Of a stretch of DNA of 64,000 bases, positions 1,483 through 50,596 are shown in pieces. This DNA comes from Thermopolyspora flexuosa (GTDB taxonomy: Bacteria > Actinomycetota > Actinomycetes > Streptosporangiales > Streptosporangiaceae): NCBI RefSeq assembly GCF_006716785.1, contig NZ_VFPQ01000001.1, positions 2,604,001-2,668,000 of the forward strand. The letters run 5' to 3'. Numbering within the stretch: position 1 is the first letter of the stretch; the number at the start of each line of letters is the position of its first letter. Made by a program: the position numbers and the translations under genes. The notes under the pieces are model-generated. The model did not search any database and was not told where the DNA came from. It saw nothing but the letters and a program-made list of their open reading frames with translations.

Positions 1483-1520
1483 GTTAAACCAGACAGAATT
1501 CACCTTCTGTATGGTTTAAC
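1483..1520. repeat. 16-6-16 inverted repeat (Xer-site-like architecture)
   Basis: Left arm GTTAAACCAGACAGAA (1483-1498), centre TTCACC, right arm TTCTGTATGGTTTAAC (1505-1520). The arms match at 15 of 16 positions. The AT-rich arms contrast sharply with the surrounding DNA. The inner edges read AA-N6-TT, as in Xer recombination sites. There is no U-tract and no gene ends nearby, so a terminator is unlikely. It may be a recombination site or an operator. Confidence 0.6.
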
Positions 1521-2066
1521 ATGGCAGGGCCTCAATAACCGGACAAAATCTGCCCGGATACGCGTGCTGAGGCGGGGCCTGGACTTGGTGTCGCACTTGA
1601 CGCACATGACGCGCCACGCGAAACGGGGAGTCGCCGGATACCCGGCCCTCGCGGCCGCCGGTCACGGGGTGCCACGTCATCCGGCGCGCAGTCGCGGACA
1701 AGATCTCCCTGGCCGTCGCGCGAGACACCCGGCCGGACGCGGCGGGCATGAGTCACGCGTCGCGGCGCTCGGTCGCAGGCCCTCCAGGGCGCGCGAATGG
1801 AGGACGCCGTGCCCGGGCTTTCGATGCCCGCCTGTGGCGCGCGCCGCCTGGGCTGCCGGACGCGACTTCGCACGCGCGACACGCCGCGGTGCCGGTGCGA
1901 TCCGGCGCAGCGTGACGACGGCGCTCCTGCGTATCGAATCGCGAGCCGGCTCGGATGTTCCGCCTTGCGCGCAGCGGCCGAATCGAGATGTGCGTGGCTG
2001 CGCCGACACGGGTACGAGACGACGCGAACACGACTCGCCGGGCCCTCTTCCGGCCCGTCAGCGGCA

Positions 2067-2100
2067 TGTTTCATGCATAATCTTTATTATGCATCAAACA
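2067..2100. other. dif-like recombination site upstream of the recombinase gene
   Basis: Left arm TGTTTCATGCATAA (2067-2080), centre TCTTTA (2081-2086), right arm TTATGCATCAAACA (2087-2100); the arms match at 13 of 14 positions. The core GCATAA-N6-TTATG is identical in its arm bases to the core of E. coli dif, and the centre agrees at 4 of 6 bases (recalled dif centre TGTATA). It ends 32 bp before the ATG of the tyrosine recombinase, an arrangement known from single-recombinase Xer systems such as XerS/difSL. A plain operator or promoter element (TATTAT at 2085-2090) is the alternative. Confidence 0.6.
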
Positions 2101-2132
2101 TCTGGGCTCCCCTCCGTGGCCGGGGCGGTGTG

Positions 2133-3137
2133 ATGGCCGGGCTCGGGCAGCCCGCGGACGGGCGGGTGTTGGAGGCGATCGGCGAGTTCGTGCGGTCGCT
2201 GCAGGCGAGGAAGATGTCGCCGCACACGATCGCCGGGTACGAGCGTGATCTGCGTACGGTGGCGGAGCTGGCCGCCGCGCAGGCCGGTGTCCCGCTGAGC
2301 GACCTCGAGGTGCAGGCGCTCGGCGGCAGGCTGATGCGGGCGGCGTTCGCCGAGTTCTCCGCGCCGCGGTCGGCGGCGAGCGTCAACCGGGCGTGGAGCG
2401 CGTGGAACCGGTTCTTGACGTTCTGCGTGGCTGAGGGGCTGCTGGAGGGCAATCCGATGGCGGCGGTCCCCCGGCCGCGGCAGCCCGCTCGGGCGCCGAA
2501 GCCGCTGCTCGGCGAGGGTGATGCGGCGGTGACGCTGCTGGAGCGGATCGCCGCGGGCGCGCGTAAGGCGCGGGACCCGTGGGTGGAGCGGGATCTGGTG
2601 GTGCTGGCGCTGGGGCTGCTGACCGGCATGCGCTCGGCCGAGCTGCTCGGCCTGACGATCGGCTCGATCGGCGGCTTCCCCGGCGACCGCCGTATCCAGG
2701 TGGTCGGCAAGGGCGGCAAGACCCGCTCGCTGCCGATCGAGCCGGGCCTGGAGCGGCTGATCGACGCCTATCTCGACAGCCGCATGCGGCGATTCAACCT
2801 GGCCTCTCTCCCCCGCTCGGCGCCGCTGCTGGTCGACACCCGTAACCGTCCGCTGCAGCGTGGTGGCCTTCAGTATCTGGTGCGGCAGTGCTACCGGTAC
2901 GCGGGCATCAGTGACCGGGTGCAGAAAGGCACGCTGGTGCACGCGCTGCGGCACGAGTTCGCCACCCGCCTGGCCGAGCGCGGCGCCTCGGCGCACGAGC
3001 TGATGGAGCTGCTGGGCCACGCGTCGATCGTGACCGGGCAGAACTACATCGCATCCACCGCCCGCCAGGTACGCGCCGCCGCCCGCGCCAACCCGATCTA
3101 TCCGGTGCTGGACCGCCTCTCTTCCGGCGGTGACTGA
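2133..3137 (+). CDS. tyrosine recombinase / integrase, XerC/D-like
   Basis: A 334-residue site-specific recombinase. The N-terminal core-binding (SAM-like) domain covers about residues 10-105. The catalytic domain (about 125-325) shows the expected set: R167 in TGMRSAELL, lysine in VGKGGKTRS (193-196), H270 and R273 in HALRHEF, H296 in LLGHASI, and nucleophile Y305 in GQNYIAS. It should cleave and rejoin DNA at paired inverted arms. I chose the ATG at 2133 because the in-frame extension to 1797 runs back through the inverted repeat and has poor codon use. No excisionase or phage genes flank it. A dif-like repeat lies directly upstream and is its most likely target or operator. Length fits XerC/D, but it could be an element integrase. 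Confidence 0.9.
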   Translation: MAGLGQPADGRVLEAIGEFVRSLQARKMSPHTIAGYERDLRTVAELAAAQAGVPLSDLEVQALGGRLMRAAFAEFSAPRSAASVNRAWSAWNRFLTFCVAEGLLEGNPMAAVPRPRQPARAPKPLLGEGDAAVTLLERIAAGARKARDPWVERDLVVLALGLLTGMRSAELLGLTIGSIGGFPGDRRIQVVGKGGKTRSLPIEPGLERLIDAYLDSRMRRFNLASLPRSAPLLVDTRNRPLQRGGLQYLVRQCYRYAGISDRVQKGTLVHALRHEFATRLAERGASAHELMELLGHASIVTGQNYIASTARQVRAAARANPIYPVLDRLSSGGD

Positions 3138-6105: not shown

Positions 6106-6288
6106 CCGCCCCGGCCCGTGCCGAGCCGGGAGGCCCGCGCCGGCGCCGCCCGGCCTTGTCGGTGGCCGGTGCCGATCGGCCGAGCCCTGTGGAGGGCTCT
6201 TCTCCCCCGGGTGTGGCCGGTCCGGGCCATGAGGGTGTACGGCGCCGCCGACCGGTCATGAAGTCCTATTGGGGCCGGAGGAGGCGCG

Positions 6289-39867: not shown

Positions 39868-41031
39868 CTACGGCGTCCCGGGATCGGCCTCGGGAGCGTC
39901 GCGGTGTTCCGCTTCGGAGTGCGGCGGGCCGTCCTGGTGCCGGGAGCGGGTGCCGGCGAGGGTCGCGCGGAGCCGGTCGAGTTCGTCGCGCAGGCGCTCG
40001 GCCTCGCCGCGGGCGGTGGCGGCGGCCTGCTCGGCCACCGCTGCCGCCGTGACCGCACGCTCGCGTTCCCGCTGGGCCGTGGCGAGCGACTCGCGTGCCT
40101 CGGCGAGTTCGGCGCGGAGCCGTTCGGCCTCACCACGGGCCGAGGTTGCGGCCTGCTCCGCCGCGGCCGCCGCCGTGACGGCGCGCTCGTGGTCGCGTTG
40201 GGCGGCGGCCAATGCCTCGCGCAGGCGGGTGATCTCCTCGGCGCGGGCCTCGGCGATGCCGCGTGCCTGGTCGCGCTCGGTCTCGGCGGCGCGGGCGCGC
40301 TCGCGCTGGTCGGCCAGCTCGCGCCGCGCCGCCTCCAGCTCGCCGGTGCGCGCGGCGAGCTCGTTTTCCAGCTCGGTGATCCGGGCGGTCAGGCGGGCTG
40401 CCTGGTCGGCGGCGTGCCGCCGCTCGGCCTCGAGGTCCGCCGTGGCCTGGCGGGCGCGTTCCTCGGCGGCCGCGGCGGCGGCGCGGGCCTCCTCGGCGGC
40501 GCGCTCGGCCAGGTCACGCGCCTTGGCGTGCTCACCGGCCTGCTGCCAGGCCTGGCGGGCGCGTTCCTCGGCCCGGTCGCGCTCCTGCTCGGCGCGTTCC
40601 CGGTCCCGGCGGGCGGCGTTCACCTGCGCGGCCGCGGTGTTGGCGGCGGCCACGGCGCGCTGCTCGGCGGCCGCGGCGGCGGCGCGGGCCTCCTCGGCGG
40701 CCTGCTCGGCGGCCTCGGCCTGGGCCAGCAGGCCGCCGCTCAGCTCGGTGAGCCGTTCGCGCAGCGCGTCCTGGGCGGCCTGCCAGCGCTCGCCCGCCTC
40801 CAGCAGCGGGCCGAGCAGTTCCTGGGCGCGCGCCAGCGCACCGGCGACCGGGGCGGCGTGCGCGCTGGTGCGGGCACGGTAGGCGGCCGCGCGGCAGGCG
40901 TCACTGCAGTAGCGGGCGCGGCTGCTGCGCCCCGGGAGGGTGTTGGTGCAGCCCGGCCCGGCGCAGCGCGGCGCCGATGGGACCGGCGCGCCGTCGGCGG
41001 CGGGCGTCTCGGCGGTCTGCTCCTGCGTCAC
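39868..41031 (-). CDS. zinc-finger / long coiled-coil protein (copy 2)
   Basis: 387 residues. The Cys4 finger (C23, C28, C42, C46: CAGPGC...RYCSDAC, then RAAAYRAR) is close to that of the TetR protein at 22682-23617. A continuous coiled coil (about 60-360) follows. Near its end a ~39-residue unit is tandemly duplicated (both contain ERAVTAAA and ARGEAERLR). The tail is charged and disordered. The GTG at 41031 lies 6 nt after TATGAT on the minus strand (leaderless). It is divergent from, and shares a 106 bp operator region with, a tyrosine recombinase gene, which suggests that it works with or regulates the recombinase. Function otherwise unknown. Confidence 0.8.
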   Translation of the reverse strand: MTQEQTAETPAADGAPVPSAPRCAGPGCTNTLPGRSSRARYCSDACRAAAYRARTSAHAAPVAGALARAQELLGPLLEAGERWQAAQDALRERLTELSGGLLAQAEAAEQAAEEARAAAAAAEQRAVAAANTAAAQVNAARRDRERAEQERDRAEERARQAWQQAGEHAKARDLAERAAEEARAAAAAAEERARQATADLEAERRHAADQAARLTARITELENELAARTGELEAARRELADQRERARAAETERDQARGIAEARAEEITRLREALAAAQRDHERAVTAAAAAEQAATSARGEAERLRAELAEARESLATAQRERERAVTAAAVAEQAAATARGEAERLRDELDRLRATLAGTRSRHQDGPPHSEAEHRDAPEADPGTP

Positions 41032-41037
41032 ACCCGC

Positions 41038-41088
41038 ATCATAGCGTTCCGAACGAACGAAACACGCTTGCGTGCGTTCGCGAACGCA
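41038..41088. promoter_or_regulatory. operator cluster at the coiled-coil gene promoter
   Basis: Contains the minus-strand -10 TATGAT (41038-41043), the interrupted palindrome CGTTC-C-GAACG (41045-41055), further GAACG copies, ACGC-TT-GCGT (41064-41073) and the perfect 16 bp palindrome TGCGTTCGCGAACGCA (41073-41088). The shared GCGTTC half-site suggests that one protein binds several positions, perhaps the zinc-finger protein itself. Confidence 0.6.
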
Positions 41089-41102: not shown

Positions 41103-41137
41103 TTAGACATTATGAGAATGCCCGTTATCATCGTGTC
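41103..41137 (+). promoter_or_regulatory. recombinase promoter overlapped by a 13-6-13 inverted repeat
   Basis: TTAGAC (41103-41108), 17 bp, TATCAT (41126-41131), then 6 nt to the GTG at 41138: a leaderless promoter. The same bases hold an inverted repeat: GACATTATGAGAA (41106-41118), centre TGCCCG, TTATCATCGTGTC (41125-41137), 10 of 13 positions matching, with AA-N6-TT at the inner edges. It may be an operator or a core recombination site for the encoded recombinase. Confidence 0.6.
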
Positions 41138-42190
41138 GTGACGAGCGTGGAACCGGACCGCACCCAGACCCCGCCCACGGGCGCCCTCGTGCCCGTCGCC
41201 ACCCCGCTGCGCGGGCGCCCGCCCGCGCGCACCGCCCAGGAGCTCGCCGACCTCATGCGCGGGCTCGGCCTGCCGCAGCACGTGCTGGTCCGCACCGCCG
41301 CCTGGCTGTCCAGCGACCGGCGCCGCTCACCCCGCACCCACGACGCCTACGCCCGCGACCTGTCCTGGTGGCTCGCCTACCTCGCCGCCCGCGGCGTCGA
41401 CCCGCTCACGGTGCCCGCCACCGAGGCCGACCTGTACGCCGGGGCGCTGCGCGCCGCCGGGCTCGCCGACGCCACCCGCGCCCGCCGTATCTCCGCCGCC
41501 TCCTCCTGGAGCCGCTACCTGGCCCGCCACGGCGACGCCACAGACCCCTTCGCCGGCATGGACCGGCCCAAGGCGCCCAAGCACTCCACCACCCGCGGCC
41601 TGTCCCGCGACGAGCTCGCCCGCATGCTCGACCACGCCCGCCGCCACGAGTCGGCCCGCACCTACGCGATCCTCGCCGTGCTCGTCGTCACCGCCTGCCG
41701 CGCCTCGTCCCTCATCGGCGCCGACCTGTCCGGCTACGGCAGCGACCGCGGCCACCGCACCCTCGACGCCCCGGTCAAGGGCGGCCACACCAAACGCTGG
41801 GTGCTGCCCCCGTTCGCCTGCGAGGCCCTCGACGCCTACCTCGCCGAACGCGGCACCGCCCCCGGCCCGCTGTTCGTCACCTCCACCGGCAGGCGGCTGA
41901 CCCAGCCGTACCTCCACGAGATGATCAACCGGGTGGCGCGCGCCGCCGGGGTGCCGTTCCCGATCTCCCTGCACAGCATCCGGCACAGCGTCATCACCGA
42001 CCTGCTGTCCGACGGCACCCCGCTGCACATCGTCCAGGACCTGGCCGGGCACGCCGACCCGCGCACCACCCGCCGCTACGACCGCGCCGCCGGCGCGCTC
42101 GACCGCTCCCCCGCCTACCACCTCGGCAGCCGGTTCGAATCCGCGCTGGCCCGACTCGACCAGGACCGGGCCGACCGCGCCGAGCCGTAA
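41138..42190 (+). CDS. tyrosine recombinase / integrase (second)
   Basis: 350 residues. The core-binding domain covers about 40-145. Catalytic residues are R188 (TACRASSL), K214 (VKGGHTKR), H279 and R282 (HSIRHSV), H305 (LAGHADPRT) and Y314 (TRRYDRA). The body is only distantly like the recombinase at 2133. It should perform strand exchange at a site with short inverted arms. The GTG at 41138 is chosen because of the leaderless promoter; the longer frame from 41072 crosses both the promoter and the palindromes. No excisionase or att duplication is obvious. It may act at the upstream inverted repeat together with the divergent coiled-coil protein. Confidence 0.9.
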   Translation: MTSVEPDRTQTPPTGALVPVATPLRGRPPARTAQELADLMRGLGLPQHVLVRTAAWLSSDRRRSPRTHDAYARDLSWWLAYLAARGVDPLTVPATEADLYAGALRAAGLADATRARRISAASSWSRYLARHGDATDPFAGMDRPKAPKHSTTRGLSRDELARMLDHARRHESARTYAILAVLVVTACRASSLIGADLSGYGSDRGHRTLDAPVKGGHTKRWVLPPFACEALDAYLAERGTAPGPLFVTSTGRRLTQPYLHEMINRVARAAGVPFPISLHSIRHSVITDLLSDGTPLHIVQDLAGHADPRTTRRYDRAAGALDRSPAYHLGSRFESALARLDQDRADRAEP

Positions 42191-50131: not shown

Positions 50132-50596
50132 GGGTCGGCGACCTCCGCGAGACGGCCTGCGATGATGCCGCGTCGTCTTGTCCTGCCGGGTACGACGCAC
50201 TCGTCCGGGGCCTGCCCGCGCGGCCGCGGCGGCCGCCCCGACGCTATCACCCGCTATCCCGACATAGAGTGTTCTTTACATGTTGCTGCTAAATCCTCCG
50301 CAATCATGACTGGCTTCGGGCGCCGCCGCGAAGGTACGGTGAGACTGCACCACGCTGGGCCACTATGGTGTCTCCCGCCACGGGCGGGAGCGCGACCGCA
50401 GGGTGCCGGCGACATACGCCCGCCGGTCCGCAGCAGGTGCGCGGACACGGGCCGGGACGGCGGTCCCGTCCGCCACCACCGGGTGCACACCGGCCGCGCC
50501 CGCGGCGCCCGGCGATGACGCCGTCGGCATCGGCATGAGGGAGACCACGACACGATCAGCCGCCGCACGGCGGCCGGGAAGCGAGCACGCGAACGC
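50132..50596. other. divergent intergenic region, 465 bp
   Basis: Between the SMR gene and the antiporter gene. An AT-rich patch near 50265-50310 (with TTTACA and TGCTAAAT) probably contains promoters. A strong hairpin (CTCCCGCC at 50372-50379, loop ACG, complement to 50390) lies in the long leader of the antiporter gene; its position could allow attenuation or a riboswitch, but I recognise no known class. Confidence 0.45.

Follow-up and report, generated by a model that had tools for sequence, protein, structure and literature searches.

The tyrosine recombinase gene at 41138-42190 and the 32-bp dif-like repeat that directly precedes it are, on balance, best read as a whole as a single-recombinase Xer-type resolution module in which the crossover site doubles as the leaderless promoter of its own gene. 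Coordinates refer to the window, the whole 64,000-nucleotide stretch of Thermopolyspora flexuosa that was analysed (contig NZ_VFPQ01000001.1, positions 2,604,001 to 2,668,000). Comparison of homologous loci gives good support to the idea of a recombinase whose promoter would be its own crossover site. The conservation of the repeat, the covariation of its arms, its tie to the recombinase gene and its recurrent overlap with a promoter together make it very probable that this one sequence serves both as crossover site and as operator.

In the proposed mechanism one tyrosine recombinase would act on its own dif-like site, a 6-bp crossover hexamer flanked by two 13-bp arms. The -10 box of a leaderless promoter would fall in the right half of this site, with the start codon directly after the last arm base. 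Xer and Cre-type recombinases bind such sites with one subunit per arm. Two subunits on the site would cover the region from -10 to +1, making transcription and site occupancy mutually exclusive, and the geometry alone suggests that the recombinase probably switches off its own gene when on its target site. By binding, the recombinase would keep its own level low and steady while staying at its site, and where sister or dimeric DNA carries the site twice it would pair and resolve the two copies. We infer binding, self-repression, recombination at the hexamer and the resolution role alike. Multimer resolution is the likely job of this lineage on actinobacterial plasmids and viral contigs, and for the chromosomal copy near the predicted terminus dimer resolution or service as an accessory terminus site is most likely. 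If this is right, a single 32-bp sequence would act as crossover site, operator, -10 box and leaderless message start, which would make for a very compact recombination module that limits itself.

The recombinase gene and its upstream repeat

The recombinase carries both PF00589 and PF02899 and has the full R-K-H-R-H/W-Y catalytic set of a tyrosine recombinase, as seen in a homologue alignment and also against the E. coli XerD structure 1a0p, to which 265 of its residues align. Its nearest profiles are those of XerC and XerD, both well under cut-off (TIGR02224, 118.8 bits against 335; TIGR02225, 114.0 bits against 330). A canonical XerC or XerD identity was rejected on these equivalog scores, as was XerS (NF003462, 36.9 bits against a cut-off of 267). 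A dN/dS of 0.21 relative to the sister species, a MAG (G001), indicates purifying selection. Recombinase, divergent gene and downstream genes are collinear in the sister species, where both arms of the site are identical to those in the window and the single change falls in the centre (TGCCTG for TGCCCG). As a shared partner of the recombinase homologues, the divergent Cys-rich/coiled-coil gene was found in the sister species only. The palindromes lying between the divergent genes are possibly another operator (Table 1).

Arms of 13 bp, matching at 10 of 13 positions around TGCCCG and ending one base before the GTG at 41138, were correctly described in the original prediction. By itself such a repeat is common here and not significant, with 82 positions of the window scoring at least 10/13 around a 6-bp centre. 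Repeats of the dif-like kind, with inner TAA/TTA, number two in the 400 kb around the window, at 41106-41137 and 2066-2101, and both adjoin recombinase genes. With the further repeat at 1483-1520, the three repeats with 6-bp centres that had been placed beside two recombinase genes are real. The site at 41106-41137 is present in one copy in the genome, and a search of the 400 kb found no second full or half copy.

Between 40900 and 41400 the only promoter-like match is TAGACA-16-TATCAT (10/12; shuffles gave a mean of 0.0, sd 0.1), a reasonable candidate for the promoter of the recombinase. This sole match in 500 bp overlaps the site and has its -10 in the right arm, in agreement with the earlier claim that the repeat lies over the -35 to +1 region. 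In the arrangement TATCAT-N6-GTG a -10 box of the TANNNT type closely precedes the start codon, as in leaderless actinobacterial genes, and a leaderless start at this GTG is predicted from the sequence. M. tuberculosis as a rule has TANNNT as its -10 box and no conserved -35, and roughly one in four of its genes with a primary start site is leaderless (PMC3898074). The further proposal that expression is coupled to recombination state is not supported. Recombination between two identical sites rebuilds the same promoter and the genome has a single copy, so that occupancy, not the outcome of recombination, would be sensed. Elsewhere in the window a Guanidine-III riboswitch (46.5 bits) lies on the reverse strand at 50167-50221.

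Table 1. Positions of the recombinase genes, repeats and predicted promoter elements in the window.
Feature	Position	Strand	Remarks
Xer-like tyrosine recombinase, 350 aa, GTG start	41138-42190	+	Pfam domains, profiles, catalytic residues R188, K214, H279, R282, H305, Y314
Left arm of dif-like site, GACATTATGAGAA	41106-41118	+	Co-varies with right arm in homologues
6-bp centre TGCCCG, presumed crossover region	41119-41124	+	TGCCTG in sister species; TGNCNG in most of closest clade
Right arm of dif-like site, TTATCATCGTGTC	41125-41137	+	TTATC invariant in closest clade
-35-like hexamer TAGACA	41104-41109	+	Kept in sister species, not in distant homologues
Predicted -10 hexamer TATCAT, inside right arm	41126-41131	+	6 nt before start codon
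Divergent gene, N-terminal Cys-rich (YCSDACR) motif and long coiled coil	39868-41031	-	No family match; same place in sister species
Overlapping palindromes CGAACGAACGAAA-N5-TTGCGTGCGTTCG and GCGTTCGCGAACGC	41050-41087	.	Between divergent genes; largely conserved in sister species
Recombinase 1 of first locus	2133-3137	+	Orthologues mark genomes without canonical dif
Dif-like repeat before recombinase 1, ATGTTTCATGCATAA-TCTTTA-TTATGCATCAAACAT	2066-2101	.	Dif-like
Further first-locus repeat, GTTAAACCAGACAGAA-TTCACC-TTCTGTATGGTTTAAC	1483-1520	.	Arms change in step in relatives

Conservation and covariation of the site among homologues

Homologues of the recombinase are found on actinobacterial plasmids, IMG/VR contigs and genomes (chromosomes). 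A dif-like repeat lies no more than 1.6 kb upstream in 57 of 137 homologue loci (223 kb), whereas downstream control sequence of 481 kb has 10. In the closest clade, exactly one site stands before the gene in 21 of 26 loci, the window included. These sites were chosen by AA-N6-TTATC only, a motif rare in 1.2 Mb of the genome itself; at the eight outer arm positions, on which the choice did not depend, they match at 6.5 of 8 compared with 2.4 in controls from the same genome. Across 19 aligned sites, a set that has near relatives and in which counts are of sequences and not of events, the two arms show 27 double changes against 9.9 when shuffled. The covariation score is 0.275 against 0.107, no shuffle of 500 scored as high, and the signal is lost when the partner position is slid by 1-3 bases. 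The original prediction had named covariation of the arms in upstream regions of orthologues as a check and lack of conservation as a refutation; the arms do co-vary, and the repeat is conserved both in the closest clade and, with identical arms, in the sister species. The frequency of 10/13 repeats in the window would suit a chance palindrome, a reading that conservation, fixed position in divergent homologues and above all the covariation test, on which it was rejected, leave scarcely credible.

The association has its exceptions. About half of all homologue loci, including several in Actinomadura and all in Actinoalloteichus, have no recognisable site, and a looser search of the homologues without one yielded almost nothing new. 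It also counts against the module that the record of one plasmid homologue is labelled linear, since a linear plasmid has a less obvious need for multimer resolution. Among distant recombinases of 26-28% identity, five (L202, L206, L210, L212 and L217) have a repeat GAGTTCCGAGAA-N6-TTATCGGAACTC about 1 kb downstream of the match start. One homologue-bearing contig (G013:C1) has three near-equal copies of the gene, at 6152, 28392 and 50632, with a spacing of about 22.2 kb, as if a 22-kb plasmid had been assembled as a concatemer.

The overlap of the site with a leaderless promoter, first pointed out in the original prediction, recurs in many homologue loci. In about fifteen of them (the window, L090, L038, L094, L099/L145, L139, L140, L142-L144, L146 and L148-L150) the start codon follows exactly 6 nt after the -10 hexamer and the right half of the site supplies the TANNNT box. 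The hexamer so spaced begins at the second base of the right arm and is nearly always TATCNT. Several Actinomadura loci have a spacing of 7 nt rather than 6, and the -35 hexamer of the window is not conserved in distant relatives. As the spacing is kept over plasmids, viral contigs and chromosomes, one reporter and one resolution assay would cover the whole family.

The company that the gene keeps also lends itself to another explanation, in which an integrative plasmid or phage has degenerated and lost all but its integrase, which would be the present recombinase, and an attP, attL or attR, which would be the repeat. The closest homologues do lie on plasmids and IMG/VR contigs, PHROGs assigns the recombinase to integrase, and integrase genes often adjoin attP. 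We nevertheless regard this origin as unlikely, given that neither a second full or half site in 400 kb nor a second genomic copy was found, that the flanking genes are ordinary and common to the sister species, and that a 32-bp site which is nearly symmetrical and has no arm-type sites looks more like dif than like attP. An integrated element with attL and attR was rejected, as the second att copy expected for a phage or ICE integrase was found neither in the genome nor, as a half-site, in the 400 kb. For the resolution module, the single genomic copy and the lack of nearby half-sites would fit the resolution of sister or dimeric DNA better than integration.

Map position and the missing canonical dif

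The module is predicted to lie at the replication terminus from the position of dnaA and a weak GC skew in a draft assembly. The dnaA gene is on the 505-kb contig 2. Assuming that the chromosome consists of contigs 1 and 2, the point opposite this gene falls in contig 1 at roughly 2.55-2.67 Mb, where the window lies (2.604-2.668 Mb). The skew, taken from samples, averages above zero before 2.4 Mb and below zero between 3.2 and 4.4 Mb. In 16 genomes where a homologue of the recombinase shares a contig with canonical dif, the two are 10-160 kb apart (median 48 kb). Of the 90 tyrosine recombinases listed for eight genomes, at least seven are no more than 25 kb away from dif where 0.7 would be expected, three of the seven being of the present type and four lying 2-3 kb from dif; many of these dif-bearing genomes are close relatives, representing about seven independent lineages on the tree, a quickly built one with provisional deep forks.

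A search for canonical dif gave no convincing match in the genome or in the sister species. Both have one XerC/D-type gene (G000:C1:3124531-3125463, L001; sister copy G001:C525, L286) against two in most of the family. In both species an in-frame TAG follows QVYTLVSVD, before the C-terminal tail, and the gene is under purifying selection (dN/dS 0.21), which argues that it has been shortened rather than that it is dead. Together with the predicted terminus position of the module and its retention in both species, the missing dif and the single shortened gene might suggest that in this genus the module at 41106-42190 has itself taken over chromosome dimer resolution from XerCD/dif. This is distinctly doubtful, since relatives of its recombinase coexist with intact canonical dif in many genomes and the recombinase of the first locus fits the role better. 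Close orthologues of recombinase 1 (77-81% identity) are present in six further genomes, and their presence coincides with loss of canonical dif in all eight genomes that have the gene. In one genome set, canonical dif was found in 0 of 6 recombinase 1 genomes and in 26 of 31 other family members (p 2e-4). A dif-like repeat lies near recombinase 1 in all eight genomes, and a second repeat, with arms changing in step, in seven of the eight. More distant orthologues, of 56-61% identity, are often 1.5-7 kb from canonical dif. A third recombinase of the predicted terminus region (L002, G000:C1:2602587-2603672), just before the window, has 68-74% identity to a counterpart in four other genomes that lies 3-7 kb from canonical dif there, and this orthology and synteny place the missing dif at the first locus.

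Recombinase 1 with its two conserved and covarying repeats (first locus and L221-L228) would therefore be the likelier replacement dif, and the module at 41106-42190 a second, plasmid-type module 39 kb from it. One further locus (L237, in G060) has both a canonical dif and a repeat of the recombinase 1 type no more than 1.5 kb upstream of a recombinase 1 homologue and is a possible intermediate. Within the first locus, the segment between the two repeats (1521-2042) has no alignment to the sister species, and the break falls exactly at the repeat end at 1520. More broadly, and only tentatively, it is proposed that a Streptosporangiaceae clade has lost canonical dif and one of XerC/XerD, and that linked modules resolve its chromosomes, namely recombinase 1 and its repeats plus the plasmid-derived, promoter-embedded module in which occupancy would control the supply of recombinase. 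Some actinobacteria would on this proposal be without canonical dif and a second XerC/D gene yet have linked recombinase/site modules at the terminus, so that the possibility of a plasmid-type resolvase taking over the resolution of chromosome dimers becomes open to test. From a limited literature search, we know of no described replacement of XerCD/dif in Actinobacteria.

Comparison with known recombination systems

The likeness of the repeat to Xer crossover sites bears on whether it might be an operator only, at which the protein represses its own gene while recombining elsewhere or no longer. The position over the promoter suits such a role, and strand exchange at the site is itself a predicted activity. 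We give it a slim chance, as the repeat has the 6-bp centre and the kind of ATAA-N6-TTAT-like core seen in Xer crossover sites, the catalytic residues are kept, and in two loci (L009 and L037) the site stays ahead of the operon where a gene of about 255 aa separates it from the recombinase.

Read as a resolution module, the locus shares with XerC/XerD-dif the protein fold, the catalytic residues, the ATAA-N6-TTAT type of core and, as predicted, the terminus location. It differs in that its recombinase scores under the XerC and XerD cut-offs and its site is linked to the gene. The canonical actinobacterial dif, GATAATNNNNNTTATGTCAA, differs in sequence from the site at 41106-41137 and was rejected as an identity for this locus, where it is absent. 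In outline the module also resembles ResD/rfsF of plasmid F, in which a tyrosine resolvase has its site close by and is reported to regulate itself.

Among actinobacterial plasmids, SCP2 of Streptomyces uses the tyrosine recombinase MrpA with its site mrpS for multimer resolution (PMC3218068), and its layout is similar. In SCP2 (AL645771) an inverted repeat, TGGCTCTTGATAA-CGTTCC-TTCTCTAGAGCCA, likewise has a centre of 6 bp and begins 50 bp upstream of the mrpA start codon, and we infer that it is mrpS. Its arms differ from those of the present site, and a ribosome-binding site lies between repeat and ATG, so that mrpA is not leaderless. MrpA itself was rejected as an orthologue because it is too distant, with about 29% identity over 187 aa, a part of the catalytic half (E about 1e-4 in a tiny pairwise set).

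Linkage of a recombinase gene to its site is described as a hallmark of single recombinases (PMC5357621, PMC2731167), and the present gene has its own two-arm site with a hexanucleotide centre. XerS/difSL and XerH/difH likewise pair one Xer-like recombinase with a linked dif-like site of hexanucleotide centre and lie at the terminus, a position that is predicted here. They differ from the module in site sequence and in their low sequence identity (37 bits against 267 for the XerS profile). The module is set apart from them by the placement of its site inside a predicted leaderless promoter, by its plasmid and viral relatives and by the coexistence of canonical dif in many relatives. It would represent a variant of the linked Xer/dif kind, with the site inside a predicted leaderless promoter.
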